A stretch of 27,521 nucleotides of DNA from Intoshia linei (lineage: Eukaryota; Orthonectida; Rhopaluridae). The stretch covers positions 1 through 27,521 of the forward strand of contig LWCA01000437.1 in NCBI GenBank assembly GCA_001642005.1. The letters run 5' to 3'. The notes beneath the pieces were generated by a model. That model was given only the letters and a program-made list of their open reading frames with translations. It did no database searches and had not been told where the DNA came from. A program made the translations under genes and the position numbers. This document shows, in pieces, positions 1 through 23,480 of the stretch. The stretch's first letter is position 1; every line of letters starts with the position of its first letter.

Positions 1-189
1 GTATAATTATATTAATATTATTAATTAATATTAAATGAATCATTATTATTTTTATAATAATTATTAATGACAGTTTTACATATCTGTGTTACTGTGAATT
101 GGCGTGTAATGATTTGACACCATATTGCACAATGTGCAATGCGCATGCATAAAAGGGTTAAATATTTTTTATTAAAATTAATTTAATAC

Positions 190-3100
190 CTTTGCATGTC
201 AGGATATTATTGGTAGAATCTAGATAAAATCCGCTTTGAGCTTTGTATAATTTGCATTTTGTGCATATATCACCTTTCATTACATCACATTTGTAAACTT
301 TTTCTTCCAAATCTACAATGGAAAGGTATTTTTAAACATTATTAATAAAAATTGTTGTATTAATTTTTTTTAAAAATACAATGCAACCACCTTCTATCAT
401 AATGGAATAACTTAATATTGGTGATAATAAAAAAATTATTTCCACATACGCCGGACAAAAATTTTTTGTAATAACATGATACTGATATTATGAATGATAT
501 AGGTAAATGATTATATAATTAATATTGTCGCGTCATTTTATAAAATTGGAATACCTGAATAATTAATAAATCATCTAAATTAAACATACTAATATTACAA
601 CATAAAAATTTTACAAAAGTTTACAAACACTAAAAATAAAATTCAACATATTACCAATTTTTATACTCTAAATAAAATATTTATATCCGTTGAACTTACA
701 TTTTCAAAATAATCTATAGTGTTATAATGTAGTATTATATTAGTATGTTTAATGTAGATGATTTATTGATTAGTCAAATATTCAAATTTTATAAAATGAC
801 GGGACAATATTAATTTTAAATTATATGCATTAATTTTATATTTGTTACAAATTTTTATAACATTTTACTATGAAAATAAAGTTTAATTTAAACTTTTTAG
901 GGAAAAATTTCGATGTCGAGTGGCCGGGTCCAAACTTAACCAATTTGAATAATTTTTTCAAGAAAGTGATCACCATCACCAATAATTCTGATGGTCCAAT
1001 ATACTTTTTGATCTTTTAAAAAAATATGCAAAAGTGATCACCCTAGTGTACATTGTACAATTTATATGACAGTGTCAGTAGCGTAAAGTTATAGTGTGCG
1101 GCGCACACCCTAAAAAAATTTAAAAAATTACATTTTTCAATAACATTCATGTACTACATTGTGCTTAGTCTAAGTACATTGTACTGGTATAAATTAAAAT
1201 TCAGTTTCTTAAATTATATTCATATAAAATGAAAAAAAATGTTAATTATATGTACATTAGGGGTGTGAACGAATTTTTATATTAAAAGTGCACCCTTCCA
1301 CTATATGAAAATTTGGAAAATATTCAATTTGCACCCAGTCTTATTTCTCAACTGTTAAAAAAACCCTGGGGCATCGCCTTCAAAGTTTTGAACAATATAT
1401 CGCCCACAGTAACTAATATATGACAATTTTCTTAAAAATATTATTTTAAATATAAAAATTTTTATACAAATAGCTATAAAGATGCGCAAAATTATCGTCT
1501 AGCGAATCATGAACGCCGAATNTATTATTTTAAATATAAAAATTTTTATACAAATAGCTATAAAGATGCGCAAAATTATCGTCTAGCGAATCATGAACGT
1601 CAAATTGATAAAAAAAGTAATTTCAATGAGAAAACTGAATAAATATAAAAAATATAAATTTAAAATTAATTGTTATGGAAATAATTATTACAATGAAATT
1701 TACTATACAATTTATATTAAATTTTGCTCATTATTCATATTTTGAAGTGCTTTGTGCCAGGGTTTTTTTTAATCCTTTTTATATAATTATTTGATAATTG
1801 TGTATCATTCAACTCCATCTTCCACGTATGGGGTGGCATTTTTGTATTTTCGCAAAAAAGTGAAAAAATTCACACCTTTAATGTACATTGTACAAACAAT
1901 GTGTAAATCTACAAACGTTTACTAAAATCTATTTTTAAAAAAATCACCAAAAATTTCATATTTCACAAAAATTTCACAACAGTCTAAGTCTTAGACTCTA
2001 AGTCCTTATTAACCAATTCAAAATTTAATAAACAATGTAAATTAATTTCCGATATTGGAAATTCCATATGGGGTTCCCTTAGTAAAGTTAAAAGAATTTA
2101 ATTTTTTGAAATAAAACACATTAAATCGTGTTATTTCTTGTTATTATGAGTTTTTGAATAATACATGACGAAGTAATATACCCTAAACATTCTCAACAAG
2201 TTTAAAGCAGTTTTTGGGGTTTATGAAAAATTTTATTAATTTCAAATTACTATAATCACTATAATAATTAAATAATTCAAACTTATATAAAAGACTGCAA
2301 TTTTTGTGTGTATGTGTTCAACTTTATTTAAATAACTACTCATCTTAGAATTTTTTAAAGATCACATTTCAATTATAGTTTTTTTCGTTACGTATATAAG
2401 ATAAATTTCAACCTCCCAGTTTCACATCTTACGGGTCAAAAACCCCAGTTGTCCCTCTTTTTGAAAATCAAACGCGTTAAAGAATTTAAAAAAATATATA
2501 CGCTGATGCAGATTTTAAAATCATAAAAATTATGATAAATTTAAATTTAAAAAAATTATATCTTAATGGCCAAAAAATTAAAAAAATTCCCTTCCTTTTT
2601 TTTTTGAAAACAGTTCTAGAATTTCAAAAAATTTCAATTCGAATAAGTGACGACTTCACGGTCAAAAAAGCATTTAAGTATTCATATATTTTTTTTCCGA
2701 AATATTTTATTAAAACAAAAAATGAGAAATAATTAAGGGTCCGAAAATTAAAAAAAAAAATTATTCTGATTGAGTTTATTCCAGTTGATATAAATACAAA
2801 ATTTCAACCCGAGAAATTTACGCATTCCCGATGAAAAATAATTTTTAATATATTATCAACCAATATTTATTTTTTTTAAATATTTCGATTAAAATAAAAA
2901 TTGAAAATATAAATATTGATCTTACAATTTCATTCATCAATTACATTACCCTCAGTATCCAATGAATACTGATCATTGCTTACTGTCCATTACATATTAA
3001 ATTACTATAATAAACTATTTACAATTGCAATATTGTTTATTATTTGAGATAAATAATGGCGATCTGCAGTTAGTACATGCTTTTGTAGTAGTTTTACACG

Positions 3101-5858
3101 ACAAACAATTCGTAATCGCATTTTTACATACTAAATATTATTAATTTAAAATATAATTAAAACTCTATTTTAAAATAACTTTAAACGTACAATATATTAC
3201 ATATACACATGTACAATATAGTATATTATACATTGTATAAAGACAAAATGTATAAATATCCAAATTTAAAATTCAATCTCTACTCAGTAAATCAGTAACA
3301 CATTGTGCTTACTCACGAGAATTCTTGTCTAGAAAAATCTGAAGAAATTTATATATTCTTAAATTTAAAATTATATTCGAAACTTTCAAAAATGTAGTTT
3401 GTTATATGATTGCAAAAATAAAATCTTCAAAGATAAATCATTTTTAATTGTGGCTAATATTTTAAGTGTGTAAAAACAAAATAATTTCAATTATTACAAT
3501 AAAAAAACAACATTACATTTTACGGTAATTCAATTCAGTTAAATGGTTTAATTTATTAATTTAGTATTAGATTTTTTCTAGATAGAATTAGATATTAAAT
3601 TAAAACTACAACAACGAATTACTAAATGTAATACAACTTTGTTATTACTATTTTTATATTTATTACAATCCTTTGCAATATTGGTAAAATTAACTTGAAA
3701 TATATTTATAAAGTGCTTATTCCGTTAATTATTGATACATAATTGGTAATGAATATATATTATCATATTAAAAATAACAAAATTAGTTTTTATAATATTT
3801 GTTTTTTTTGGAATTTATGCTATTTATGAAAATTTTTAGGATTGAAATGGTTTTACATTATTTTTAATATTATACACATATTTTGTCTAATAATTTAAAA
3901 AAATTAAAAAAATTGTTTTTAAAATTCTTAAAGAAAATATTAACAAAACAAAATTAAGATCGAATGATTAAACTTCTTAAAAAGGTTGATAATAGTGAAT
4001 AGTAGGATTTTTAAGTTAGATTTTTAATGTGAATTTATTTTTTTGATCAAATAAAAATGTGCCCTTGGCAGAGCTAGGTAGAGCTGTTTGTACGTAGTAC
4101 ATAACAGTCAACCTAGTATATGTATATTATACATCTGATATATGTAATTATGTTAAATTACATACTTATGTATGTGTAAAGTAAAAAACTAACGTAAGCA
4201 TAGACCTCCTTGTAAGGTATATCCATTGTCACATTGCTTGCATATATCATCTACGGCACATTTACAATAATTTATAGGCTTCTTGGTACACTCTGTGCTT
4301 AATTAAGTAAATATAAGTTTATCGTACTTCGACATCCGAATTTAAAGCTAAAGTAGCCATCTATACATAGCGAACATTCACTATGGTAACGTACACATTT
4401 TATACATTTATTTTTTTTGTTGCAATCTAAATTAAAAAATTTAAAATGTTCAAATTGTACAATAAATATTGACGATGTAGTTTATATCAGTTATGGGAAT
4501 TGGACCATAATATCGAAATGACTTAAGATGACTCTCAAATAATTAATATTAACAAAATAACTCGAAAAATAATTGAATATGGCACTCAAAATATTCATAT
4601 TTATAATCGCTATAGATTTTTAAAAAATCACAGCTAATAGTGTTCTTTCGAGTTAACGTAAAGAAAAATTTTTAATCTCACAAAGTTATGGATTCACGTT
4701 TAAAAAATGAATCTACTATTTATTTTCTATTCTTTTGGAAATTATTTCATTTACATTAAATTTTAAACTAAATAATATTAAATTATTATTTATTATTTAA
4801 ACTTTAATTGGTTTCTAAAACATTTTTTAAACATTTCTAAAATAATATCCGTTTAACAAAATTTTTCTCCTCTTGTACCTTGGTCAGCAGTGAATTTCAT
4901 GGTATTAAAAATCATATTTCAAACTTAAAAAATATACATGATGTAATTAAAAACATTATTATTTAATTGATGTTGCCGAGTAAAATATTTATAGCCTTAG
5001 TAGTTATGACCATTTTAATTGATGTATCATATTTGCTACATCGGTTTTGATAAATTTGATTAACGTAAAAATACAGAATATACTATTAACCTTAAAAATA
5101 TTCCTAATAGTAGTTGACGATTATATGAAATTGAGTTTGAAATAAATCTTTAACAAAGGAGAAAATTTAAAAATGTAACTTTACAAAAGAGACCATTTAG
5201 AAATGAAACTTTAAAAATTGAGATTATAGTGTGAAACCGTTATAATCATTTTAATCTGAATTTTTATTTTGCCCTGTATTTTATTTTGTTGAATATACTC
5301 GGAATCGTTTCTGTAGAGTTAAAATTGAAATGTATCATGTGTCAGAATTTATTGATATAAAAATGCAATAAAAATATGCAAAAGGTTGCCGATCCCTGGT
5401 TTTTGATGTATTCGAAAATTAGTTTTTTAATAAATTAAAATGTTTAGTTTGATGACATTTTGAAATTTACTTTTTATTTTTTGTACCAATATTTAGGGAT
5501 TTCAATTTCTAAATATTCAATAGATGTGGTTTATTTATTTCAAACGTTGGAATATACAAACTATTTAATAAAACTAATTTTTGATTTTTTTGAATAAATG
5601 TCAGTTTTCTGATGTAAATTTTATAAATAGTAAGGTAAATTTCTTAGATATGTACACTTTTCTCGTCACTGATGTAAATATATTATATATTCGAAAAATT
5701 TAATTACACACACATCTTGTTGCCTCCGGATTTAAAATATAATTTGCAACGCAATATAAACATTGATTATTATATGTTAATGCACAATTAGTATCTGTAT
5801 CTGTATAAACTAAATGCAGCAGTACTATCAAGGATATAAAATGTAGAAAAAAATTCAT
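190..5858 (-). CDS. Secreted modular cysteine-rich protein (spliced, 3' end probably beyond window)
   Basis: Five exons can be read: 5708-5858, 4328-4426, 4194-4292, 3023-3130 and 190-312 (151, 99, 99, 108 and 123 bp; 193 codons plus one base, no internal stop). Exon 1 opens with ATG and encodes a classic signal peptide (MNFFLHFISLIVLLHLVY) followed by DTDTNC. Every exon ends one base into a codon and exons 2-5 start with the two completing bases. Splicing yields RCVYC, GCRKC and GLCLLC at successive junctions, so Cys-x-x-Cys motifs are restored across three introns, which strongly supports the model. The repeating pattern is C-x5-7-C-x1-2-C, then a second C-x2-C, then often G-Y/F-x-L, then C-x at the exon end; about 26 cysteines in all. 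The layout recalls furin-like or growth-factor-receptor cysteine-rich repeats, but I do not recognise the family. Intron 2 is only 35 bp (4293-4327). The donor at 4193 is GTTAGT, a weak one. Exon 5 ends at a GTATTA donor, so more exons should follow to the left. Extracellular location is inferred from the signal peptide; an effector-like or structural role is speculation. Confidence 0.72.
509..832. repeat. Foldback-type inverted repeat (MITE-like)
   Basis: The segment 519-597 is repeated in inverted orientation at about 735-813, with weaker similarity continuing outward to 509 and 832. Shared landmarks are CGTCATTTTATAAAATT, AATAAATCATCTA and TTAAACATACTAATAT. The arms of about 80-90 bp flank a spacer of about 137 bp. 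It sits in the last long intron of the cysteine-rich gene. I could not define a target-site duplication, so the superfamily is open. Confidence 0.7.
1258..1880. mobile_element. Non-autonomous hAT-type element with 8-bp target duplication
   Basis: Terminal inverted repeats TAGGGGTGTGAA (left) and TAAAGGTGTGAA (right, read inward) bound a 623-bp segment. It is flanked on both sides by the exact 8-bp duplication ATGTACAT (1250-1257 and 1881-1888). An 8-bp duplication with a TAGGG-like terminus is typical of the hAT superfamily. No transposase frame is visible inside. The element lies in the intron between exons 4 and 5 of the cysteine-rich gene and contains an 84-bp tandem duplication with an ambiguous base. 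Confidence 0.8.
1439..1606. repeat. 84-bp tandem duplication interrupted by an N
   Basis: The segment starting TATTATTTTAAATATAAA at 1439 is repeated from 1523 with only two visible differences over 84 bases. The single ambiguous base at 1522 sits exactly at the junction. That position suggests an assembly join in which the same sequence was used on both sides, rather than a biological duplication. Confidence 0.85.
2290..2935. repeat. Repeat family A, copy 1
   Basis: Matches 14362-15055 closely, including AACTTTATTTAAATAACTAC-like, TTACGGGTCAAAAACC and GACGACTTCACGGTCAAAAA strings. Compared with copy 2 it lacks about 45 bp near 2632, at a point where AAAAAATTT lies on both sides, which looks like a short-homology deletion. 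It has no coding capacity that I trust; the 66-codon open frame inside it is not preserved in the other copies. Confidence 0.8.
3290..4112. repeat. Repeat family B, copy 1
   Basis: Shares long stretches with 25165-26486: ACAACGAATTACTAAATGTA near the middle, TTTGGAATTTATGCTATTTA further on, and a shared right end GTTTGTACGTAGTACATAAC followed by AGTCA. It lies in the intron between exons 3 and 4 of the cysteine-rich gene. No terminal inverted repeat or target duplication could be fixed, so the class is unknown. Confidence 0.75.
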
Positions 5859-5870
5859 TCAAATTGCAGT

Positions 5871-5879
5871 TTAAATATA
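5871..5879 (-). promoter_or_regulatory. Possible TATA-like box of the cysteine-rich gene
   Basis: TATATTTAA lies about 13 bases upstream of the signal-peptide ATG. In DNA this rich in A and T such a string is common, and the spacing would leave almost no 5' UTR. It may be fortuitous. Confidence 0.12.
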
Positions 5880-5899
5880 TCTTTTTTAAAGTACACAAC

Positions 5900-6226
5900 T
5901 TAAAAACATTTTAATGTTGTGTATTGACATAATAACAAAACAAAAGTAATTATATCATAGACGTAATTTTTCCACTCGTTATCAATAAAATATTTAATAT
6001 ATATTATGCGTAACGTGGCGTATATATAAATCAACTTAATCAAACTAGCCGAAAAATCGTATTTAAACTTACTCTGACAAGCACCATTATATGGCGTTAT
6101 TAGATTTTCGAGATATAGTACTTTCAGCACTAGGGTGTTATGACTAGAATGAATAATGTCATAAACATAATTTTTTTTTAATAATAAAAAAATGTTAGAA
6201 ATGTATGAGGGAACTCTAATAAACAC
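5900..6226 (-). other. 108-codon open frame with an internal peptide repeat
   Basis: An unusually long open frame for this AT content. It contains the octapeptide KNYVYDII twice (around 6154-6177 and 5948-5971). The two DNA copies differ at four of eight codons, all at synonymous third positions, which hints at past protein-level constraint. No domain is recognised. The frame also holds the strong GTAAGT donor at 6072, so it may be a spliced exon read through into its intron rather than one protein. Confidence 0.2.
6073..6129 (-). other. Candidate extra cysteine-module exon upstream of the secreted gene
   Basis: On the minus strand an AG acceptor (after ACACCCT) is followed by 57 bp that are open as 2 + 54 + 1 bases and end ...GGTGCTTGTCAGA before a strong GTAAGT donor. 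The end reads Ala-Cys-Gln and then one base, the same Cys-x/phase-1 ending as the five exons of the neighbouring gene. Joined to exon 2 of that gene (4426) it would give A-C-Q-N-C, again C-x-x-C. It may be an alternative upstream exon or a relic of a tandem paralogue. The open frame extends to an ATG at 6226, so a longer first exon is also possible. No other cysteine lies in it, so the call rests on phase, donor and ending only. Confidence 0.3.
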
Positions 6227-6410
6227 AGTTAATAGGGTATATCTTTTTTAATAAGTTTTTAAATCATAAATATCATATTTTTGACATAATTCTCATAATA
6301 ATATTAAAAAATTAATAATTTAAAAAAATTTTATTTTCCTTAAAACCATAATATAAATCAACAATTTTCAACTATACTGTGTGAAATAAAATCACCAAAA
6401 ACTTATTTGC

Positions 6411-7656: not shown

Positions 7657-10600
7657 TTACTTGTCACCTACTTTGCCAATACCTTTTTTATCAGAATCAA
7701 AAGATTCGGGTGTAAAAGGAGTAGGATTTATGTTTTGGTTTTCGTTAATATCAGACACTCGTTGAGAATTTGAATTAACGACATTTAAATGTTTGTTATC
7801 ATCTCTTGGTGCATTATTACCAACTCCCATAAACTGTACAAAATCTATATTATTAACATCCTCCATATCGCAAAGCATTTCATCGTCAATTAAATTAAAA
7901 TTATCTGAATTTATAAAATTATTTTCCAGGTCGGTATTGCAATCCAAATCACCACCAGATTCAATTAAATCCATCGGATCAAAGTCGACTGCAACGAAAT
8001 TTTCAGTTTTTTCATTGAGTGTAAATGATTCTACTGTAGATACATTTTGTTGACTTGTATCATTTTCTATTGTTGATTTATCAGAGACACTTTTAGGCAT
8101 TGAATGGACTCCGTCAGATTGTAAAATACTATGTATTGAAGATTCTTCAACAGACATTGGTTTTAATCTTAATGCAGCCGGAGAATTATCTTTTTTTGGA
8201 TCGGCTGACATGGGAGATTGTCTGTATGGTAACATATTTTCAAGTGTTGACTTTGGCTTGTTTGGTGACATTTTCATTTGACCATTGAAATCTAAAAATT
8301 TGATTATTTTATCATGTACTTAAATTATACTTAAATATTTAAAATTTTAATAATTCAATTTGTATATTACTTTTAGTTTTATTTTCTATATTTGAAACTT
8401 GATTTGTGGACACAGATTCACTTAAAACTGATAAAGAGTGTAAAATATTGGTAGAATTTTCATTAGAAAAAGTATTTTTGTTGTTATCTACATTAATGCC
8501 ATCATTTTTTGATTTTTCAATAGAATCAGGTAGATTCATTGTCATATCATTTTCAGGCAAATGTGAATGTGTGGTTGTAGACAATAATTCTACTTCAGCG
8601 CCACTTCTATCAAAAATGTTTTTATCGCTATTTGGTGTAGACTTTTGTAAAGGTGAATTAATGTTCTTTGAATTTGCAGCACTTGCCCAAGGGTTCACAT
8701 TTTGATCGTAGAGTGAAGATCCATTTACATAACCAGCTTTATAGCACGAAACTATAGACCAATTTTGTTCCGGGTTAACCCAAATGTATTTTACATCAGA
8801 ACTTACATGTGACAATAACTTATTTACGTATCCATCAATATGAAGAGATTCCAATGCTGCTTCTTTTCTAAATTTTTTTATAACTTTTAAAAATTAAAAA
8901 AAAAATGGATGGAACAGCACAGCCCTTTTCAACCTTTTTCAAGATGGAACATCTTCATTTTTGGGGATTAATTAATTTGTCAGTATTTAATTAAATTTTT
9001 TCATCATTGATATCATTCAAATTACATATTTGTCAGTATATAATTGCATTTTTGTCAGTAAATATATTAAATAGATCAGTATTCATCGAAAATTGTAAGT
9101 AACTCAACAAAACAGTATATAGAAATAAACACATTTTATAAAATAATATTTTGTCAGTAAAAAAATTGAATTGTAAGTTTAATGATTTTGAAGTGTCAGT
9201 ATAAAAATTAAAAGTTTTTGAAATTGAATGTAATTATGTCAATCCCTTTAATCTTTTTTATATCTCTCTCTTGTCGTAATTTTTATTTTTTATCATAGAT
9301 AAATAGTTTTGGCTTTACATTTATCACCAAATAAACTAAACTTGATAATACGTATTTTTTCTGGCCACTTCACCTAATCATTAGGCTAATGGCTATATTC
9401 TACAATTCAATCATTAAAAATATTTTTTCATTTTTTAAGCATTTTACCGTAACTTTTTTATTAATCTTTAAATAACAAGTTTTATAAGTGTAGCGGTTTT
9501 ATAGTTAAACTAGCTTGGCAGTTTTGTACTATGTACAAACAGCACGTGGATCTGGTTCAGGTGGAACCGTCATATCACATTAATTTTTACTTTAAAGTGA
9601 ATTATTCCATCTTAATTTTGTTTTGTTAACATTTGCGGTAAAAGAATTTTAAAAACAATTGTTATCCCATTATTTTAATTTATTAGACAAAATGTGTCCA
9701 TACTTTTGGCCTTTTCTCTTGTGAATGTTACTTTTCTTTTACCATTTTATGTTAAATTTGTAACAATTATCAATAAAAAAATAACACGTTTCAGTTAATA
9801 TAAATTTAATTTTATAAATTCGTTGCTGTAGTGTTAAAATTTGAAGATTATAAAAAATTTTTTGAAAATGAAAATTAAAAATTGTGGTCTTTAAAAAATT
9901 CTAAGAGTAATAGTTATTTCAATAGGCACATACACAAAAAAAAATCGCGTAGCCTTTTATATAAGTTAAAATAAAATATAATTTTATAACACCTGGGTCT
10001 CTAAAAAAAGACAATAGAATATCTCGAAAAGTTTGTCTAAATCTGACAAAAATTGAATTTTTGAGTTATCTTTTTGTGGCTCATAGCGATCATATTCAGA
10101 ATGGCTAACTGTGATTATACTGTAACAGCACGTTGATTTTTTTTATCCGTTACATTAAAAAATATATATATATTACTGGCAAATTGGGCAACGCCACAGA
10201 GTTCGATCAGCATTTAGATTCACATATGTGCTCAAATCATAGCACTAGAAATAAAATGTAACAAAATTAAAAAATTTTATACCTGCACATGTTGGCAATC
10301 TTGACCCCTAGCTGGTATTTTAATTTGTCGAAAAGATATGGCACACTCAACGTTGATACGAACAATTCTTTCACCTTTTTGATTATAAGAAATGTTGGGT
10401 ATTTCATGAGGAATAAAATTTAAAATTCGTTTAACTAAAAATAGATTAATTAAAATAGATTAATGTTTTAAAATTACTTTTAGAAATTGACATATCAACA
10501 GATACGATGCGTTTACGCATGAGTCCTTCAACAACAGATGTAACACTGGGACGATGAACCAAATGAAGAATAAAATTATGAGAACAACAACATTGCGAAA

Positions 10601-12293
10601 CTGTAATTTGGATAAGATTTCTGGATGGTCTAACGACTTGCTTTAAATTTAGCGGTTTATGTTCATTCGGCATTCCTTGAACTGTCGTGGTTTGTCCATC
10701 TATATTTCGTGTAATAAACATTTGATGTTCATTAACTGAAACGGAAACGGAAGCAGGCCAATTAGTGGTACAATAACGGTCTTCATGATGAAAACATTTC
10801 AATTGCAATTCCAAATCTGCGCGCATCATTAAAACGGGATAAACGTTATCTCTCAAGTAAAATTCGTGGCTGCTTACAGCGATATTGTGTTCAAGTCGAA
10901 AAGGTGGTAAAATGACTCCATCTCGAACAGGAAAAGATAACCGTGGTTCAATCGGGTACGGGTACATGGAGTAGTTGGATTGAGAATTCATTCTGTGCAT
11001 TGAATCAGATTGATTACTGGGGAGTCCAGGGAAAACTTCTGGAGGTTGAAAAGAATTTGAATTATTACCGTGGAGAGGTGTATTTCCCTCGAACCCGGGT
11101 CTAGGATCCATGAAATTGTTGGTATAAGCGAATTGGTTGTTATTATTGGGTTTTATGTAAGCTGTTTCAATATCATTTGATTTCTTTGCTGTACTAGGAC
11201 CATATACATCTGGGTTTAATAGTTGACTTGAATCAGGATAAGGACCAGGTCGTGATATTGGTAAATTATTGTAAACTGATGACGGTCGTTTACTGGTTAG
11301 TGAGTTTATTTGCCGATTTTGCCTATGTGAGTTAAGATTGCCAGGTAAATTCTGCCTGTCTGGTCTATTTGCACCAGGAGTTGAAGCAAATAATCTTTGT
11401 TGGAAAGGATTTGGAACTGCAGACATGGGTTGGTTAAGCGCCAATTGTCTACTTCTATACGCCTTCATATCAGGGTTTAACGAGTTTTCCAAATTTTCTT
11501 CTCGTATGTGACTAGAATTAAATTGATTGCCTGTCAATGGGTTCTTGATTGCTTCAATGTGTGCAATAAGTGGGCCTTCCTGTTTAAGTTCTTCCCGATT
11601 AGATATATTATGTGGAGAATTTGACAAATGGTTTTCTTGGGGAGGGTGAGCATAAGATTTGAAAGGAGGTTCATTTCTTGAATAAGGATTATAATTAGTT
11701 TGACTTGCACCTGAGGGAAAAGTAGATGGCGTAGGAGTAGTATTAAACTGCTGACTCCTTTGATATGGTAATTCTGTAGTTTTGATTGAACCGTTTTGTT
11801 GGTTAGCATACTGTTGAGCCATCATGGATTCCCGGCTGGAATGCCATGGTGAAGCTGTGGAATTTGGAATATCTTGGACTGGTCCTCGACTAAATGCATT
11901 AGAAGTTTGATTAGGGTTTGTTCGGTTGGGGTTCATCCAATAATGTGGATTATCACTCATGCCTTGTTCCTGGTTTAAAGCATACATTCGACTAAGCTCC
12001 TCAGTCCAATAAATGAGCATATTGGCAGATTTTGGAGTAAATTTATGCCGCTGAGAAGTGCAAGTACTCAATAACTGATAAGCCAATCCCAATTGAAATC
12101 CCGGCTGTAAAGCCACTTGACTGACCACAGTGAGACAACTAATAAGACTTTGCTCAAAATTTGGGTGGAATGCACGTGGATCCGAGCACCATTCCAACAA
12201 CTCTAGTACTGCATTTTTAAATGTAGCTTCATTAGATAAATTCTCCTTTATACACATCAATCTCTCGTTGGTTGAAGAAATATGGTTGTCCAT
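7657..12293 (-). CDS. tna: ZMIZ1/tonalli-type SP-RING protein (PIAS-like SUMO ligase / transcriptional co-regulator)
   Basis: Five coding exons: 10478-12293, 10283-10434, 10177-10244, 8371-8867 and 7657-8291 (3168 bp, 1055 residues). All junctions keep the frame. Residues 1-105 match the conserved ZMIZ N-terminal domain (DPRAF, FEQSL, CLTVVS, KFTPKSA). Residues about 110-440 are Pro/Ser/Asn/Gln-rich. Residues about 448-600 are the conserved region before the RING ([27 protein letters not shown]). The SP-RING at 635-680 is split over exons 2-4: [16 protein letters not shown] and WRCPICQ, with the expected metal ligands Cys652, His654, Cys675 and Cys678. The tail is acidic ([13 protein letters not shown]). 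Known relatives act in the nucleus as SUMO E3-like co-activators that work with chromatin remodelling and hormone-receptor pathways. The ATG has a good context (AACATGG), and an in-frame TAA at 12309-12311 lies upstream. Oddities: introns of 43 and 38 bp, CAI in place of the usual CPI at the RING start, and 605 residues in one exon. A GTAGGT near the stop could be a donor to a further exon. Confidence 0.95.
8976..9159. repeat. Cluster of TTTGTCAGTA 10-mers
   Basis: Four exact copies start at 8976, 9029, 9051 and 9150, with degenerate ones at 9074 (GATCAGTA) and about 9193 (GTGTCAGTA). The spacing is irregular, so this is not a simple tandem repeat. On the gene's strand it reads TACTGACAAA, which resembles a branch-point sequence. 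Confidence 0.6.
9525..9890 (-). repeat. Repeat family B, inverted copy in intron 3
   Basis: Read on the minus strand it matches 15170-15700: ACAGCAACGAATTTATAAAA, AACTGAAACGTGTTATTTTT, ATGTGATATGACGGTTCCAC and the right end CTGTTTGTACATAGTAC. Its orientation is opposite to the other copies in the window. Confidence 0.75.
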
Positions 12294-12378: not shown

Positions 12379-14280
12379 ATCAAATTGGATGCGAGATAAA
12401 ATCTGTCGACGTAATTAATTTAGCAAAGATTTCTAATATCACTTAAATTTTATTGAATAGTGTTTGAATATAGCAATTGTCTATTGCGAAAAATTTTCAT
12501 TATCTTTCATACTAGTGACGCTCTCACTTATTTACAACAATAACAGTTAGCAACTTATGTTTCAGTAAAATTTATTTGTTGGTTGTTATTGCTTTGATCG
12601 AGATTATTAAATTAATTAGTTTCAAATCAACTATATTATCAATTTAATTTTTTGTGTTTACATAAATTTGCAACCTATGATTGAACAAATTTTAAGAATT
12701 GTGTTTAGTTGAAACCAAATTTGTTGCAAAATTATCTTGTTGTTAATGCTAGATTCAGGTGTATTTATTGGAAAAATAGTATAAATCTATAGATCTATAG
12801 CAATTTAAATTTTGTTAGTTAACTGGCTTAACTGCACATCGTAGACTGATTAAAATTTAGTCCTAATTTAATGCAATATCATCTTTAATTAGTGATAGTT
12901 AATTTAATTTTGTAAAGTAAATAATTCTGAACGAATCGTACGATGGTGCTGCCGTAAATTCAACAAATACACTCACTTGATCCTTTTATTTTTAAAACTC
13001 AAATTACTCTTAATAGCATTTTTTCAAACGTATAAAATTAAAATTACCGCACATTTGTCAAATTAGTCGGAAATTCAATTAATTTAAAACAATTCTTTGG
13101 TAAGAAAATAATTACATTTAAATATAACGATTTGATACTCTAGTTTCGTCTGTTGTGAATGACAAATTTTGTATAAAATTAAATAATTTAGAGTAGTCTG
13201 GAATGCGACACATAATCATAAATGTAGTGACAAGATTAACTATACACTTCGCAGACTGATTACAAAGTGGTTATCAACAAGTGGTCATAATCGAGTACTC
13301 TCGCGCGACAGCTTAAACAACGGACATCTTTGAACAGCTGAATAAATATTTTGTCTTCTCCAATCAAGAGTTCGATATGGAGATAGCAAACTACAGTCAC
13401 TTTCTTGTGACCTAGTTTACAATAAAAATCAATTTGTTATTTCTATAACATTCAAATTCTTTCTTACTCTAATAATGTCATTTTTACATTTATTCCATTG
13501 TGCACAATTTCCGTTTTACACATGTTTTGTAGTTTGCAGTTAATTTCAACAACTTTAAGTAGAGCACTCGTATTTTTTATAACATTATGTTTAACATCGT
13601 GTTAGATTTTATTTCATTAGTTTCATAACTTATTTTACTATATTTATCACTATGTTTTTTTATAAAATTTTATGTCAATCAAACAGTCTTAAGTTTATAT
13701 TACTAAATTTAAAATTCAGAAAATAATGGATTCATTACCGTTGTCATCTTTCGGATGGTCCCAGTGATATATGAACCATTTACCGAGTTGTACCTGTACA
13801 GAGTACAGGTTATATTGTACAGTAAAATGTACTAATACGATAATTATCTGTATGGCATATATTTATAGAACCCATCTGCATTCCACATATCTCAAATAAT
13901 ATACTTTTGACAGTGTAATTGATATGTTTGTGTACTCATGATGTGATTGTATTATTTACAAATTTTTAATTTAATTGTCATTTTCAAAACAAATAATGCT
14001 AATATTGATTTATCCAATAATTATTATAATACAGTGTATAATGTAAATCAAGTGTCAATCTATGGCCCTTTGCATAAATTTTTGTTATCCTCAGATAAAA
14101 TTTGAAATTATTGGTGTATTGCAGAGTTCCCAAACTATTGTAATTTATTTAATTTTATAAAAAATTATCATTTTTTTATAAACACATTTGCGACGTACAT
14201 TGGATGTTTATATTAAAATGTATGTTGTACAACACCGTCATCGTTCGAATTTAAAGTTTAAAGCTGTTTGATTCATCAGG
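12379..14280. other. Upstream flank of the SP-RING gene (5' UTR/promoter region)
   Basis: No coding exon is seen. Two similar sites on the gene's strand, AATCAGTCTACG (about 12840) and AATCAGTCTGCG (about 13250), contain the arthropod initiator-like TCAGTC. A CpG-containing patch (TCGCGCGA near 13300) is richer in G and C than its surroundings. These are candidate transcription starts for the minus-strand gene, not demonstrated ones. Confidence 0.3.
13792..13810. repeat. Perfect 8-bp hairpin
   Basis: ACCTGTAC-AGA-GTACAGGT, a perfect inverted repeat with a three-base loop, in otherwise featureless DNA upstream of the SP-RING gene. Function unknown. Confidence 0.6.
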
Positions 14281-14282
14281 GG

Positions 14283-14345
14283 CGCACCCAAGAGTCTAGT
14301 TAATGGGGTGCAAGCGAAGCAAGCAATATATTTAACTTATTATTT
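14283..14345 (-). mobile_element. Possible Helitron-like terminus
   Basis: Read on the minus strand: a degenerate stem (TGCTTGC-TTC-GCTTGCA) is followed by CCCCATTAACTAG. A short GC-richer stem followed about ten bases later by CTAG is typical of the 3' end of Helitrons. The stem is imperfect and the base after CTAG is A instead of T, so this is tentative. Repeat A copy 2 follows directly on the plus-strand side. Confidence 0.3.
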
Positions 14346-14361
14346 TAACTTATATAAAATG

Positions 14362-15055
14362 CGACGCGATTTTTGTTTGTGTGTGTCTGTGTGTGTGTTC
14401 AGCTTTATTTAAATAACTACCCGTCTTAGAATTTTTTAAAGACAACATTTCAACTACAGTTTTTTTCGAGACGTATATTAAGATTTATTTCAACCTCACA
14501 ATTTCACATCTTAAGGGTCAAAAACCCCTATTGTTCCTCTTTTTGAAAATCAAACAAGTTGGAGAATTTAAAAAAATATATACGCTGATGCGGATTTTAA
14601 AATCATAAACATTATCATAAATTTAAATTTCAAAAAATTATATCTTCATGGCCAAAAACTTAAAAAATTCCCTTTCTTTTTTTTTGAAAACAGCCCTAGA
14701 ATTTCAAAAAATTTACAGGGTTATCAGGTAGAGTTGTATCATGTTAACACACATAAAAAATTTCAATTCGAATAAGTGACGACTTCACGGTCAAAAAAGA
14801 ATTTTAGTATTCATATATTTTTTTTTGGAAATATTTTATTAAAACAAAAAATATGAAATAATTAACTGTCCAAAAATTAAAAAAAATGATTATTCTGATA
14901 GAGCCTATTCCATTTGATATAAATACAAAATGTCAACTCCAGAAATCTACGCATTCCCGGTGAAAAATAATTTTTAATATATTATCAACCAATATTTTTC
15001 AAATATTTCGAATTAAAATCAAAAATTGAAAATGTAAATATTGATCTAACAGTTT
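14362..15055. repeat. Repeat family A, copy 2 (fullest)
   Basis: The most complete copy. It starts with a GT-rich run (14377-14399), then AGCTTTATTTAAATAACTAC, CATCTTAAGGGTCAAAAACC and GACGACTTCACGGTCAAAAA. It matches 2290-2935 closely, 16355-16745 weakly and 23165-23380 in its first third. No open frame is conserved among the copies, so the family is non-autonomous. Confidence 0.8.
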
Positions 15056-15169
15056 CAAAAAAAATGTGTATTGTACGTCTACGCATTTCCAATAAAGACA
15101 TATGGGTGAGAATCTATATAATTCATTCCTTCGCAATTTTTTAATTTCCAATTTTTATTTTCATTTTCA

Positions 15170-15780
15170 AAACATTTTTTATAATCTTCAAATTTCAACA
15201 TTACAGCAACGAATTTATAAAATTAAATTTATATTAACTGAAACGTGTTATTTTTTTTATTGATAATTGTTACAAATTTAACATAAAAGTAAATAAAGAC
15301 AAAAGTTAACATTCACAAGAAAAAAGGCCAAAAGTATGGACACATTTTTAACATTAATGATTTTTATATTACAATCCTGTGCAATAATGGTAAAATTCGA
15401 CTGAAATATTAATTAAGTGTAGATTCAATTAATTATTTATACACTTTTAGTATTTTTAAGTAATATATTAAATACTAAATTTATTTATTAAATTGATACT
15501 AAATATATGTCATCACATTGAAAATGACAAAATATGTTTTCATAATTTTATTTTTTCTGGAATTTATGCTATTTATGACAATTTTTAGGATTGGACTGTT
15601 TTTACTTTAATTTTTTACGCAAATTTTAACAAAAAAAACTAAGATGAAATAATTTATTTTAAAGTAAAAAGTAATGTGATATGACGGTTCCACCTGAAAC
15701 ACATTTGGGAATTATTTAAAAGATTGATAATAGGAAATAGTATTTTTAAGTTAGATTTTAGATTAGTTAGATTAAAAAAT
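15170..15780. repeat. Repeat family B, copy 3
   Basis: Starts near TATAATCTTCAAATTTCAAC, contains TTTCTGGAATTTATGCTATT and ATGTGATATGACGGTTCCAC, and fades after TTTAAGTTAGATTTTA. It lies about 115 bp beyond the end of repeat A copy 2, in the same orientation. Confidence 0.75.
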
Positions 15781-16225
15781 GCTTCACATTTATATCTTAA
15801 GAAACAGTTTATAAGTTTTAAAGTGTGGGAATTCAAATAGCTAGAAAGAAAATAGTCTAAAAAATCCAAATTCTGGTAAATATTTAATTTAAAATATATT
15901 CTACAATGTTTATCATATAATATTGACATAAAAACTGTTTCAAATAATAATATTATTGATTAAAACTTTTCCATTAAGTGAATATTCCAAAAAAAATGTA
16001 GAAAATCTTTGATTTTCTCTGACTAATTTTTAAAAAATGGGTCCTAAAATTTTTTTTATCGCTTCGCTCAAAACTTTAAAGGACCTTCGGTCCAATGCTT
16101 AGCCCAGGGTCACGAAGTGGCTTAAGACGGCTCTAATAATACGTATGATGTGTAATGCATTGCTACTCAGATACGAACCCAACTGGTTCGAGAAACCAAA
16201 ATCAAAGATCTCTAAAAATTCTAAA
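15781..16225. other. Repeat-cluster spacer
   Basis: AT-rich filler ending in a GC-richer patch (16060-16135) that holds a perfect hairpin, GGACC-TTC-GGTCC, at 16081-16093. It may be the end of another mobile element. No gene is seen. Confidence 0.4.
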
Positions 16226-16227
16226 CG

Positions 16228-16276
16228 ATGCGCAATGGCATAGTGGATATGGGTCTGGATTCCAGACTCATGAATG
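16228..16276 (+). repeat. tRNA-like fragment, possible SINE head remnant
   Basis: TGGCATAGTGG (16236-16246) fits the pol III A-box consensus, and the next 25 bases resemble the D-arm and anticodon arm of an Arg-type tRNA. There is no B box and no T33 at the expected loop position, so it is not a working tRNA. It is most likely a degraded tRNA-derived SINE. Confidence 0.3.
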
Positions 16277-16354
16277 ACAATTATGATATAGTAAAATAGA
16301 CTTATATCTTTACTTATATACTTTTATTAATTACTTATTTAATTACTCATGTAC

Positions 16355-16745
16355 ATCTGTTATTGTTTATTTCAATAACTAAGAGTGTTAGAATTTTAAC
16401 AATTCCACATTTCTATTATAGTTTTTTCCTAGGCTTACCGTAAGATAAATTTCAATTTCAGAAACTCACATCTTACCCAATTAACAATTAAAAAAAACTA
16501 AATTATAATTAAAAAAGGAAATATACAAAAAATATACTCTTATACAGATTTAAAATCATGAATATCATCATAAATTTATATTTAAAAAAAATATATCTAT
16601 AGGTTCAAAACCCAAAATACCCGTTTTGAAAAAATGAAAATAGTCTTGGAATTTTAAAAAAAATTACAATTCATACAGTTATCTCCACATATTATACACA
16701 AAAAAATTTGATCTTTCTAAGTGAGGTCTTCACGGTCAAAAAAGC
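16355..16745. repeat. Repeat family A, divergent copy 3
   Basis: Same order of landmarks as the other A copies (GTTTATTTCAATAACTA, AGATAAATTTCAATTTC, GTCTTCACGGTCAAAAAAGC) but with many substitutions and gaps, so it is an older copy. Confidence 0.6.
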
Positions 16746-16749
16746 ACTT

Positions 16750-18711
16750 TTATAATCAACTATTGTTTTATATAAGAATAATATTTTAGATATGAATAAT
16801 ATTTTAGATAACAAATTAATATTTAATGTATAGAAATTTAATACAAATTTTTTTTGAAATTGTAGGATGATCTTTTATTTGCGATAAAACATCACTCTCG
16901 AAAAAATTTAATAAAAATATGAAATTTGTAAAAATCGACATTTTTATGTAAACTATTTTATATAAGTAATGATTTTCGATAAAGTTAAATCGATAGTATA
17001 AAATTTTGTTAGATCTAAAATTTTTTGATTTTACATGTTAATAAAAAAGACACATTTATGAAAGAGTTAAAATTGTTATATAAACAGTATAATACTCTTT
17101 ATATACGACGCCAAACCACCCTTTATTACGGAATTTCACAAATAGGGTTAATAGGAAAAATTCTTGATGAATATGCACTATTCTGATAGTTCGATGAATG
17201 AAAATTTTTAAGATATCTATTTTTGGTGAAATAGAGGTTTAAAGTTAAATGTGAAATATTTATTTTAAATTTTTAATAAAATTTTAATAATTCATATGAT
17301 GTCATAATTACCTTAAATAGAAATTATTGGGGTCAAAAATTTTTTTTAAGTTTTTGAGTCTGGGTACCAACTGTGAAGTATGTTTAAAACCGCAGCTTTA
17401 GTATTATGCATTTATTAGAATATTATAAGGTATAGAAAATTGAAATTCTTTATAACATCAAGGGTAAAAATTTAAATTTTATTGAAAAAACATTTATTAT
17501 GTTGATTTATCGATTTCATTCAATATTCTAAATTAAAAATAAAAATGAATTCATAAAGTATATAAAGTGGAATACAATTAATTAATTAGTACATTTTACA
17601 TTCGATAAGAGCCAAACCCATCCTACTGATACCTCTGATTAGGGACAACTACGAAATTATCTAAAGTGTGCTCATTTTTTCACATGAAGCTTTTAAAAAT
17701 TTTTATATTTTTCAATATAAAACTGTATCATATTTAAATTCTCGCATCCAAACTCTTGAAAAGTTGACTAAGAGCTGAATGAAATGATAATTCGGTTAGG
17801 ATTTTTTAAAAACCTATTTTGATTATCGATATCTATATGTAGGGTGCGGCTCTGCACTGAACCCTCTAATATTTACAGATTCCGTTATTCATCAACTTTG
17901 GAAGCTTTTTTAGTAAAAAAAATCCAAATAAAAATTTCTAAAAAAATGCGTGTGCTCTCATAATTTAAATTACATGGAATGATAAACCATTTCGTATTCA
18001 TAATATTAAAAAGTTATTATTGTAAAAATTAAAATATTACTAAAATGAACTGACTAAAATAAATAAAATTAATATACTTATTATAAGCCTTATGCATATT
18101 GTATTATAGTATAATGATTATATTACACGGTGTATAATAATTATACATAGTGTGTCAATTTATTAGGCAGATCACTAAAATTCATCTAATAAACTTTAGG
18201 AATAATGAAAACTTAATTTTTCTTTGTAATTAGTAGGCTTTTAAGTGTAAATAATATAGTATTCTCTCCTCAATTTGCCAATTCTCTAACTCGCTAATTT
18301 TATCTAAATCCTAAGAATGACAAGTTGTAGAGAGTATACTGTAATTAATAATTAAATGTAATATAAATTATAAATATTATAAATTATAATTACTAATTAT
18401 ACATGTATTTAATATGATATTGATAAAATAATTACCTTTGACTATAGTTTAACATATAATATATAGTATTATAATATTGTATTAATATACATACAAAACA
18501 TTTGTAAAATGTATTTTAATAATAATGAAGATAATCATAACATCTAATAATCAATATATTTACAATCTAAAATAACACAAATTAAATATATACATTTTAT
18601 AAATCTTTTTTAAAACTTTTGTAATGATTAAACTGACTTAAAAACAGATTTATTCAAAAATATTTTTTTCGATCATTTCAATAAATTGTTTTATTTAGTC
18701 TATTTTAGATA
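16750..18711. other. Gene-poor AT-rich stretch
   Basis: No supportable gene. Slightly GC-richer patches near 17600-17660 and 17840-17875 carry only short open frames without clear splice sites. Confidence 0.4.
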
Positions 18712-18987
18712 CAGTGAGTTGTAAAACTATAAATTCGCTCCACTTTTTGATGAAGCAATTGTAATACCGTTTAAACAAAATTTTTTCGACCAAATTAATT
18801 ATTATTTATATTAATATATATTAAAAACATCTAAAAATTAATTAAAAATAAAATTATATGGAGACATTTCCACTTTTTTACAGTTTTAGTTATTGTTTAG
18901 ATTTTTTTATCGTTATAAAAATATATATGAAGCATTATACTTGCTTCATCAAAAATGGGGGTGTATGCAGATTTTTGCAACCCACTG
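18712..18987. mobile_element. Tc1/mariner-type MITE, 276 bp
   Basis: Terminal inverted repeats of about 57 bp with mismatches: CAGTGAGTTGTAAAA on the left, CAGTGGGTTGCAAAA on the right (inverted), both ending inside TTTTTGATGAAGCAA. The element is bounded by TA on each side (18710-18711 and 18988-18989). A CAGTG terminus with a TA duplication is typical of Tc1/mariner. No transposase is present. Confidence 0.82.
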
Positions 18988-18989
18988 TA

Positions 18990-20385
18990 AAAAATTAATT
19001 TACATTGTACAATTTACAATGCAGATGTAATGTGTATTTAATACTATTATTACAGTACATGTCGCATAAAATTTACTTTCTATTTTAATTTAATTGTGTA
19101 TTTATTTTATGTTAATCAGATCTTTATGTCTCAAATTAGTATGCTTAACTGAAACAAATACGAAATTAATTAATTGTTAAAAACAAATTCTTTAACAAAT
19201 GAGTAAAAACGTTGGAAATCATTGATGTGAAGGGTTTATAATTTTATCCATATTTTGATATGTTTAAAAAATTTATCGTATATTAAAAAATGAAAATCTT
19301 TAATGATAAATTAAATGGCTTTAATTTAAAACGTGACCACACATTTCTCTGAACGTAGATCCAAATTTGGATATAAGTATGTATTATTTACGCCCTATAA
19401 TAATTTTATTATTATTATAGCTATATCACCTATAGTAATTAGATACATGTGTCTACAAATATATTGATGATGAGTTATTAAATGACACTGTTAATCATCT
19501 TAAAAATTATAATAAATTTAATAGTTAATACTACAAATAAAGATAAGTTCAAATTAAAACTGGTAATTTTAAATCGCTGAGTAGTGCGATATTGTTGCAA
19601 TAATATGAAAAACTAAAATTATACAAGTTAGTTTTAGCTCATTTCTCATGCCATACGGCGCTGGATTTCTTTAAAACTTTTAAATTCTATTTTTGGCGAA
19701 AAATAAAACCGAACGTCAATTCGTTTCAAAATGTGAACATTAGGATTTACAATATAAAAATTGTTAAATAAATATCAAAAATAAAGTAAATCAATATACA
19801 TGTGGTTTGTAAAGTAAATGAAATTGTGTATTACAAACTAATATAATTAAATGTACATTAATAATATTATTATGAATTATTCCAGTATACACTAAAAGTG
19901 ATATAATTTACAGTTCTCTAATTTGTTAAATATTATTTCTTATATATTGCTACTCATTAAATTTTAATGTGAATATAATTATATAAGTATATACATTATG
20001 TACTTGTAAATAATAAAAAGCCAAAGTACAAAATTGTACAGACTGCTACTGATTACTCTCAAAGATTAGATGAATATATACACCTGTAACCTAATTTATT
20101 GAAAACAATAATTGTTGTGTTCATAGCAATAGATTCGAATGAATATTAGCGAAAAGAATATGACTTGTAAAAAGTTAAAAAATTAAATTTTTTCATTATA
20201 AGATCATTGTATAATATATATTTCTTCGTTTTTAACATTAGTGCTACACATTTGCTAAAATGTAATAAAAAGTGGAATAAAACTTTGATATTAATTAATG
20301 TTGATTTATTTTCATCAAAAATAAAAGTTAGAAACTATATTTGACCCGTAAAATGAATTATAAAATGTAAGAGAACGGGAATTTA
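18990..20385. other. Gene-poor AT-rich stretch
   Basis: I see no gene, structured RNA or element end that I can support here. Confidence 0.4.
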
Positions 20386-20387
20386 CG

Positions 20388-20470
20388 GATCGGGTCATAA
20401 CCAGGCCAGTGGAGAGGGGCTAAGACCATATGACCGGGCCTACAACCATGAGGGTTTAGGTTTTAAATTT
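20388..20470. repeat. GC-richer repeat remnant, left member
   Basis: CATAACCAGGCCAGTGGAGAG resembles, in inverted orientation, TATGACCATGGCCGTGGAGAG at 21320-21352. Together they could be the ends of a decayed element of about 960 bp, but neither edge nor a target duplication can be fixed. Confidence 0.3.
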
Positions 20471-20789
20471 ATTTATGGGTAATGTTAGAAAATTTCGTAA
20501 TTGTATACCAAAAGTATTGTATAATAAAATGTATTAGAGCCATTATCTAGCAAATAAAATATAAAAATTTCAATTTAAGTGACTTACAAAAAATAATATT
20601 CAAGACTTATACGAGTTTCAGTTACGAGATCAAGGTATAATAGAATATGAGATGAGATAATAACATAATATTTAACAGATATTTCCAAAATTCAAAAAAA
20701 TTTATTCTTTTAATTAGATTATAAATTTGGTTCAAAATACGCATAAAATGTTACTACTTTACGAATTGAACTTATTATTTACGTTATAC

Positions 20790-20912
20790 ATTTATGATAT
20801 TATTAAATTGTAAATTATAACCACCAAACGGTGCTTCACTTCTGTTCTGATAAATTAACACTTGCACTAAAATTAATATCAGTATAATTATATATTTTAA
20901 TAATGAACTCAT
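20790..20912 (-). other. Candidate first exon of a secreted protein
   Basis: An open frame begins MSSLLKYIIILILILVQVLI, a plausible signal peptide, and continues YQNRSEAPFGGYN. The bases coding the polar part are clearly GC-richer than the flanks, as in the confirmed exons of this window. It ends at a possible GTATAA donor (20789); otherwise it stops at 20784. No following exon is recognised, and hydrophobic open frames arise easily in AT-rich DNA. Confidence 0.28.
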
Positions 20913-21289
20913 GTTTTTACATTTTAACCGCATTATTTTAATGCGCATTCGATGGAGTATGCATACTTTTATGAACTTTACCATGTACTGTTATTATTTT
21001 TTTAGTCAACATTGGAGTGGTTATAATGCATTACTTTTGAGAATGTATTTTAAAATATATATATAGTATATTTTATTTTTTTATGTCATAATATCTTAAT
21101 ATTAAATTTTGTAGTATCCTGAAAATATACGAATAAACTAGAAATATGGTAGCATATAATTTAAATTTATTGTTTTTTTAATTTATGACAGAGAATGGCT
21201 CATTAACAGTTCAATTAGTTATTTATAATTTTTAGATAATGAACTATCGATTAACCAATGTATAGAAGTCCCATTTTTTAAACAAAATT

Positions 21290-21352
21290 TTATAGGGGCC
21301 TAATTTCCATCTGACCTGGCCTACTGCTGACTCTCCACGGCCATGGTCATAC
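21290..21352. repeat. GC-richer repeat remnant, right member
   Basis: The inverted partner of the patch at 20388-20470 (GGCC-GTGGAGAG core). It lies inside a 77-codon minus-strand open frame that I regard as chance. Confidence 0.3.
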
Positions 21353-21479
21353 ACAATATGATTCCTACTAAGTATTAATACTATGTAATACATGAATTGT
21401 ATTTGAATAATTCTATAATTTAATATATAATTATTACTATCTTGAAATATATGAATTAGAGCACATAATTTTATCATCC

Positions 21480-22490
21480 CATTTATACAGTATTGTTATT
21501 TAGTATAGCTATTAAAAATTCGCTATATTGGGTCTTAGTTTAAATGACAGGTTTAAGTTAACGATAAGAAAGAAAAACGGAAAATTAATTAAAAATTTAT
21601 TATTAAATCCTGTTATATTACTTAAATTATAATAATACTTGTATCCTTCATTAATACTTTTTTGTATGAAAAAAATAACTATTTAGGATTTAAAAAATTA
21701 TTTTAAAGTATATATATTTACTGTAGGAAATAACTTATTTAAAACGGTTGTAATTTTGTTGTTTGATTGATAATTTGTTAAAATTCTATGCTATTTCTAC
21801 TAACATTCAAATATTGTTTTGTTTTTATGTGAGAATCTACACAAAACGACTTGTACTTTTTCAAAATTGACCACTACATTAATCAATTAAAAAAAAATGA
21901 ATTAAATAAAAAAGTTAGTGAGCATTACAGATAAATTTTAATGATCCGCCAAATTTATTTAATAAAATTTTTTAGCAGAACCGAAAATATCAGACCCTTT
22001 TTTATTGAAATTTTTTTAAATAATGTCTACAAGTGACTAAATATGTTTAAAACGGATTTTCTCGTATTGTAAATAGAAAAAAATTTATTTTATTGACTAA
22101 AACTCGCAATATTCATAACATGCACAATACAAGGTACATTATATTGATTTATAATATAAGGTAATAAGTGTATACAAAAAAATTTAAGAGGTTTTGGAAT
22201 TTTTTTATGTCGCTGCGGGCGCTGTGGTGAAAAAGGTTACTAAAATCTGCATCAACTGAATGAAACCAGATTTTTATGAAATTTTTTTATGAGAAAATGT
22301 TTACCTTTTTCTTCTAAAATGATTTATAATTGAGTACATTGGTCATCATTTTAATTAATACTTTAATTAATAAAATGTGTAATTAATATGTTAATAATTT
22401 TAAATTTACTCAACACTATGAATTCATGTATTGATAAGTAATATAAACGTATAGTGATGTTCATGAAGACAAAAAAGCTATGCCATATGA
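21480..22490. other. Gene-poor stretch with one GC-rich patch
   Basis: AT-rich DNA. A patch at 22210-22260 (GTCGCTGCGGGCGCTGTGG) stands out in composition and is probably a transposon remnant. I cannot place its ends. Confidence 0.35.
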
Positions 22491-22497
22491 GACTTAC

Positions 22498-22520
22498 AGT
22501 CAAAGTGACAAGTGAAACAT
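22498..22520 (-). other. Candidate 23-bp micro-exon
   Basis: On the minus strand a pyrimidine-rich acceptor (TTTCATTTTTCATTTACAG) is followed by 23 bases and a perfect GTAAGT donor. Joined to the candidate exon at 22899-22949 the frame stays open (G plus AT, then V-S-L-V-T-L-T). Both splice sites are strong, but the exon is too short to judge by coding content. Confidence 0.27.
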
Positions 22521-22898
22521 CTGTAAATGAAAAATGAAATGATCAAATTACTTTCTAAAAATGGGTAATAATTAGAGTAATGAACATTGTTTTCAGTAAA
22601 ACCCTATTAGCTCTGCACGTGTATAAATTTTTCGATACAACGTCAATCCTACAATTTCTAAGTTATAAAAAACATATTGATCCCTATTTTTAAATTATGC
22701 AGTACATATGTAATTTTAATTAACTCTTGAAAAATAGTTTCGTGTCAAAAATGCCAAATATACATAAATGTATACTAGACATTAAAAAATAAATTCAATA
22801 GAAACAAAAAAATAAAAATACTATACATGTATATTATACTATATGTATATGTATATTATTATTATTATTGTCTATGATATTACATGTATATTAATTAC

Positions 22899-22949
22899 CA
22901 ATCTCTTTAAGTTCTTTCAGTTTAATTTTATCCAGTTCTTTTTCTTTTT
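22899..22949 (-). other. Candidate 51-bp micro-exon, Lys/Glu-rich helix
   Basis: The acceptor TTTTATCCATTAG precedes 51 bases that are open in only one frame (2 + 48 + 1), coding KEKELDKIKLKELKEI, a charged, probably helical or coiled-coil segment. It ends at a GTAATT donor. The phases match the 22498-22520 candidate downstream. The parent gene is unknown. Confidence 0.35.
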
Positions 22950-23164
22950 CTAATGGATAAAATATTAATTTATATTAATAAGAAATAAATTGCGAATTAC
23001 TTTTTGATTAATTAAAATTTTATAGAGTTTGAATTGAAATTTTAAAAAACGACTTATATTTGAAAAAAATAACGTTAACTATAAAAATTGATTTTATATC
23101 ATGAAAAAACGACTTTATCCACTGAAAACATCTACAAAAATATTTTTCTATTACATTATGGGTG

Positions 23165-23380: not shown

Positions 23381-23480
23381 ATTTTTAAGTACATTTATTA
23401 TTATTGGTACTGAATATATATCATCACATTAAAAATTACAAAATAGATTTTTATAATTTTATTTTTTCTGAAATTGTATT
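23381..23480. repeat. Repeat family B fragment fused to copy 4 of A
   Basis: Begins GGTATTTTTAAGTACATTTA and matches the TATTTTTAAGT...ATATCATCACATT segment of the B copies. The direct A-to-B junction looks like an internal deletion of a longer A-B unit. Confidence 0.65.

Follow-up and report, generated by a model that had tools for sequence, protein, structure and literature searches.

The window gene and its exons

The window analyzed here, 27,521 bp of DNA, is the entire contig 928 of the 34.65-Mb Intoshia linei assembly; labels such as C13 and C599 denote other contigs. At one end it carries the 5' part of a gene for a predicted secreted protein built from cysteine-rich modules. As predicted from the sequence, the gene comprises five minus-strand exons flanked by AG and GT, the first of which opens with ATG, and these splice in phase 1 into a single open frame of 193 residues with a hydrophobic N terminus that probably acts as a signal peptide. 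Exon 1 (5708..5858, 151 nt) contains the ATG, the putative signal peptide beginning MNFFLHFISLIVLLHLVYT, and a first module with four cysteines, CALTYNNQCLYCVANYILNPEATRCV, and ends in phase 1 at the donor GTAATT. Exon 2 (4328..4426, 99 nt), exon 3 (4194..4292, 99 nt), and exon 4 (3023..3130, 108 nt) each encode a six-cysteine module (CNKKNKCIKCVRYHSECSLCIDGYFSFKFGCR, CTKKPINYCKCAVDDICKQCDNGYTLQGGLCL, and CKNAITNCLSCKTTTKACTNCRSPLFISNNKQYCN, respectively), whereas exon 5 (190..312, 123 nt) encodes a four-cysteine module, CDVMKGDICTKCKLYKAQSGFYLDSTNNILTCK. The introns measure 1281, 35, 1063, and 2710 bp in the 5' to 3' direction, with the 35-bp intron lying between exons 2 and 3. The predicted product thus consists of a signal peptide and five cysteine modules, and exon 5 is the final exon ahead of the contig end, which cuts the gene 189 bases beyond it.

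The exon junctions reveal how the modules are joined. C-x2-C pairs are restored at the first three junctions (CV/Y/C, CR/K/C, and CL/L/C, with the residue of the split codon between the slashes), as the split codons sit between the final Cys-x of one exon and the first Cys of the next. An earlier note on this DNA had proposed a secreted, modular, cysteine-rich protein here, with furin-like cysteine spacing and not recognizable as any named animal family. Our analysis agrees on these points: the five exons lie where they had been placed, in phase and with cysteine pairs rebuilt at three junctions, the furin-like spacing and the extracellular, exon-modular character are upheld, and the window protein has no Pfam match. 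Its attribution to an insect was wrong, as the adjoining ZMIZ/Tonalli-type gene, with at least three coding blocks on the minus strand (window 7660–12293), is A3Q56_03773 of I. linei (Orthonectida). Aphid bicycle effectors occur in aphid-type insects and have many micro-exons and a CYC motif; this identity was rejected, the source animal being an orthonectid and the exons 99 to 151 nt long. A search for Chitin_bind_4, which its controls could not validate, found none.

Several controls address whether such a pattern could arise by chance. A chain score, devised after the exons were known, reached 27.1 in window 1–6300. Among 200 dinucleotide shuffles, none attained this value (mean 5.9, maximum 12.9), and six other stretches of the window scored at most 7.7. 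The best real chain under this score comprised exons 1 to 4, with exon 5 falling under the threshold. A hidden Markov model (HMM) trained on 116 modules from other contigs placed the five exons as the top five of 784 open segments of the window (six-cysteine HMM, ranks 1, 4, 5, 2, and 3 for exons 1 to 5, respectively), and a four-cysteine HMM ranked exon 5 best of all 784, although the single-exon matches were each weak (E = 0.0007–0.08). Because the cysteines alone could drive this ranking, the other residues were permuted with the cysteines fixed. Of 1000 such permutations per exon, 3, 67, 7, 21, and 6 (exons 1 to 5, in order) reached the real score. With the four-cysteine profile, exon 5 had none in 1000. 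As a set, the non-cysteine residues fit the module profile; exon 2 is weak in this test and by itself not significant at 5%. In addition, seven splice sites fall at the positions given by the exon rule of the family described below, where ~2e-10 would be expected from dinucleotide frequencies. Chance is unlikely to be the source of the five-exon pattern.

The same evidence bears on whether the locus is a decaying 5' fragment or pseudogene, or an accidental array of cysteine codons and splice-like sites, which we consider highly improbable. Such an origin would be in keeping with the three introns above 1 kb, two of which contain repeats, and with the lack of a match to the window protein in the protein collection. 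However, all five exons are open and in phase, and the shuffle, HMM, splice-site, and permutation controls all speak against it.

Related genes in the Intoshia linei genome

Further genomic copies were sought by sequence search, as had been suggested, and the 15 contigs read, the window included, carry such genes. The spliced window protein recovered its own exons and one module on C599 (E = 0.0029). With the C599 module as the query, 14 places on 12 contigs were detected, itself and the window included (E = 0.0004–0.34 for the others), and later queries added contigs. Reading stretches of the 15 contigs yielded 230 candidate family exons, a list that includes 14 rows within two open frames on C358 as well as doubtful rows, such as a plus-strand one on C599. 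Most of these contigs carry runs of ~96-base phase-1 exons with one module (~32 residues) per exon, and owing to this symmetry, the gain or loss of an exon keeps the frame intact. Family exons are in phase 1, with a start two bases ahead of a Cys codon and an end that lies one codon and one base past another. In the window gene, exons 2 to 4 follow this rule at both ends and exons 1 and 5 at the donor; exon 5 is also in phase 1, but it starts two bases plus seven codons ahead of its first Cys.

The gene models were derived from the simple chain score, which favors short introns, performs poorly on most first exons, and overlooks some exons while including false ones. The largest models, on C13 (35 exons, 1109 residues) and C1010 (31 exons, 1112 residues), are collinear and share 45% identity over 1137 columns. 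Predicted family introns have a median of 57 bp (235 introns, with short ones favored by the score), equal to the median given for I. linei introns in the available text of PMC6543705.

One family gene, on C588, is annotated as A3Q56_02727, a partial hypothetical protein of 1196 aa. This protein and its paralogues come from the same genome as the window gene and share its module, which on C588 is likewise carried by phase-1 exons. However, A3Q56_02727 is far longer than the window protein, which represents the first five exons only, and is divergent from it (23% over 173 residues, E = 1e-4 in a BLAST comparison of 18 sequences). In this comparison, where the E-values are specific to a tiny set, the best matches of the window protein were C99 (1e-6), C599 (2e-6), and the annelid protein P0136 discussed below (1e-5). 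A word-based search of 5.8 billion proteins, including those of I. linei, gave zero relatives of the window protein at E ≤ 1, and the window gene is therefore apparently unannotated.

Tandem duplicate family genes lie at C86:15984–26860 (a gap of 99 bases on this contig was represented by 100 N, so coordinates above 18000 are one too high), and their modules look, by eye, most similar to furin-like repeats. For this tandem pair, the nonsynonymous (Ka) and synonymous (Ks) divergences are 0.23 and 1.22 over 246 codons, and the resulting ratio of 0.19 (obtained by simple counting, with Ks close to saturation) suggests that the protein has been kept by selection in that pair, the one tested. At C358:8000–17900, the modules of a family gene are not spread one per exon but lie within two long open frames (840 and 585 residues), a layout that is possibly due to intron loss; beside this gene, at 16.9–17.4 kb, are pieces that we take to resemble a Tc1-type transposase.

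The 3' part of the gene is readable in five relatives (C588, C13, C1010, C358, and C581), and in all of them, the cysteines follow the Ly6/uPAR order ending in CC-x4-CN. This motif is followed by ~25 to 28 residues that are hydrophobic towards the stop codon, which falls within the hydrophobic stretch in C588, C13, C358, and C581; the C1010 tail was read to before the stop, with an open frame of 39 residues. A3Q56_02727 has the same Ly6-like end and hydrophobic tail. A test for the Ly6/uPAR pattern (ending CC-x3-6-CN) found it in the relatives, and Pfam gave two matches that were below cut-off while covering nearly the whole profile, namely QVR, a u-PAR/Ly-6-like family, in A3Q56_02727 (E = 0.0097) and Activin_recp in a protein from the wider search, P0133 (E = 0.073). 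The tails of the annelid protein and of C358 gave no Pfam match. With a four-sequence profile, LYPD6 aligned across almost all of its length, but only at E = 3.7 and ranked after an unrelated enzyme (E = 1.2). Two structure predictions left the Ly6-like end unfolded, and VIA-align listed no three-finger fold, a result that is uninformative given a predicted local distance difference test score (pLDDT) below 50 in this region. The assignment of the C-terminal part to a Ly6/uPAR domain, which comes from the cysteine pattern, is not secure.

These ends bear on the fate of the window protein, for which an effector or a surface or matrix protein had been suggested. Since all five relatives with a readable 3' part end in a hydrophobic tail resembling a glycosylphosphatidylinositol (GPI) signal, an effector appears less likely than a membrane-anchored surface protein, with the anchor of the window gene presumed from its relatives. 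It is improbable that the window gene instead encodes a short soluble secreted effector lacking the anchor. Residues 100 to 170 of the window protein align with residues 1045 to 1112 of the C1010 model, near the end of the module array, so the gene may be short, and C599 looks like a similar gene start, with a signal peptide, a first module, and then CSVNISNC- and CAGAITNC-type modules. The shared hydrophobic tail of the five relatives nevertheless argues for an anchor.

Relatives in other organisms and a proposed surface coat

Using the 752-residue C588 model as a query, we obtained 24 proteins at E ≤ 0.001, of which 15 have a precomputed Pfam variant-specific surface protein (VSP) domain. 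The organisms named among them are I. linei, three ciliates (Stentor, Ichthyophthirius, and Paramecium), and the annelid Paralvinella palmiformis. A CC..CN pattern within the last 140 residues was present in three of the 24, the I. linei protein, P0136 from Paralvinella, and P0133, all of which end hydrophobic; P0126, P0129, and P0141 are examples with a hydrophobic end and without the pattern. At their N termini, P0133 and P0136 also have a signal peptide, followed by a first module resembling that of the I. linei genes. P0133, a module-bearing protein of 877 residues with all of these features, is a third carrier of the layout and perhaps comes from an animal.

The annelid protein, LSH36_676g00014 (P0136, 845 aa), shares the signal peptide, tandem modules, Ly6-like cysteine pattern, and hydrophobic tail, and aligns with the window protein at 29% over 123 residues (E = 1e-5 in the 18-sequence BLAST). 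However, it is shorter than the longest I. linei models, is listed as EGF-like domain-containing, and was compared at the protein level. As ciliate and metagenome proteins outscore it in the search with the C588 model, the argument for common descent with the annelid relies on the layout as a whole rather than on the modules. The family had been called lineage-specific, which captures its expansion in I. linei but not the presence of the same layout in an annelid. The cysteine-rich proteins of Stentor, Ichthyophthirius, and Paramecium have similar modules in long tandem arrays, whereas none of these matches carries the CC..CN Ly6-like pattern in the last 140 residues. Contaminating ciliate DNA was rejected as the origin of the modules on this contig, because the I. 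linei ZMIZ gene lies on it too.

Giardia VSPs (PF03302) are likewise CxxC-rich proteins with a signal peptide. At the PF03302 cut-off of 31.4 bits, two of four sequences from I. linei relatives passed (35.1 and 38.9, the latter being the module chain from the first gene of the C86 tandem pair), a third scored 18.4, and the Ly6-like end gave none. There was no PF03302 match in the window protein, A3Q56_02727, or the annelid protein, P0133 scored 20.4 bits, below the cut-off, and a genome-wide search with exons searched singly gave one subthreshold match. Giardia genes are not intron-rich, unlike the intron-rich family genes of I. linei. Moreover, the CRGKA cytoplasmic tail, which defines Giardia vsp genes according to the available text of PMC2996952, is missing from the four relatives in which the stop codon was read (C588, C13, C358, and C581). 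In the members scanned, the only Pfam hit across the modules, where there was one, was Giardia VSP, so this animal family seems to be absent from curated libraries. No Pfam Furin-like match was found in the window protein or the relatives scanned, and the likeness to the Fu repeats of R-spondins appears in predicted structures only; the window protein itself had no Protein Data Bank (PDB) match. R-spondins have two Fu repeats, are soluble, and lack a Ly6-like end.

The sequences themselves show the predicted export signal, the tandem arrangement of modules on interchangeable exons, the hydrophobic end in relatives, and, in one pair, purifying selection. With a probability of roughly 0.6, we propose that the gene whose 5' end lies in the window belongs to an expanded family. 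Its products would be long surface proteins, braced by disulfides and anchored in the membrane, and the family would derive from annelid-like ancestors. The modules would fold as furin-like, disulfide-braced beta-hairpin units and stack into a long stiff rod, and the C-terminal hydrophobic peptide would be exchanged for a GPI anchor, which for the window gene is presumed from its relatives. Many such rods might cover the worm's cells externally as a tough coat that resists proteases. With less confidence, the likeliest site of the coat may be the surface of the parasite body or plasmodium facing host tissue, where a dense disulfide-rich layer would both protect the membrane and mediate contact. 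The ancestral gene would already have been present in the annelid-like ancestor and would then have expanded in the orthonectid.

P. palmiformis is an annelid and not a parasite, and because it has the same layout, the ancestral role was probably not parasitic. This lends support to a serious, if rather unlikely, rival in which the rods belong to the surface of the cilia or cuticle in the free-swimming, ciliated adult and have no connection with the host, like mastigonemes or the GPI-anchored, cysteine-rich immobilization antigens of ciliates. The sole PDB match at E ≤ 0.001 for the predicted model of the annelid relative was the Chlamydomonas mastigoneme filament (8tx1, E = 2.3e-8). However, the template modeling scores (TM-scores) were very low (0.10 and 0.05, with a root-mean-square deviation of 78), and the match may therefore reflect just a repeated cysteine-rich rod. 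Furthermore, cilia do not explain the expansion of the family, as most lophotrochozoans have them. An extension of the proposed anchored coat, which we regard as distinctly improbable, is a variable coat comparable to those of Giardia or trypanosomes, in which an annelid-derived repertoire of long, disulfide-rich, GPI-anchored proteins assembled from interchangeable phase-1 exons would be shown to the host by the syncytial plasmodium and would differ between individuals or switch expression.

The interpretation of the locus shifts from a lone undescribed secreted protein to one predicted member of a family that has expanded in an orthonectid and has a counterpart in an annelid. A furin- or VSP-like modular surface protein is a known kind; no description of its combination with a Ly6-like end, exon regularity, and orthonectid expansion was found in the titles and abstract openings that the literature searches covered, which did not include the original I. 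linei genome paper, where the family may be mentioned. Few animals are as reduced as orthonectids, and little is known of how the plasmodium lives in host tissue. A large family of cysteine-rich surface proteins, probably anchored, offers concrete molecules to localize. In the available part of a 2025 paper (PMC12249979), orthonectids are argued to lie within annelids, and the plasmodium is described as living and feeding in host tissue; a review, in its accessible portion, calls the nutritive mechanism of the plasmodium unknown. The layout held in common with the annelid (modules, Ly6-like end, and hydrophobic tail) would provide an independent, testable character for orthonectids as simplified annelids.

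Other content of the window

The whole window contains no tRNA and no Rfam family, and no cysteine-module chain was found in the stretches tested within 12400–27521. Several repeats occur near the exons. The intron between exons 3 and 4 includes, at window 4000–4160, part of an interspersed repeat with at least 39 other genomic places at 86 to 94% identity over 113 to 159 bases, plus one 43-base piece. In intron 4, an inverted repeat at window 514–818, with 82-nt arms that are 90% complementary and spaced by 141 nt, resembles a small terminal-inverted-repeat element. Window 1439–1606 is a tandem duplication of 2.0 copies with a period of 84 and a 96% match.
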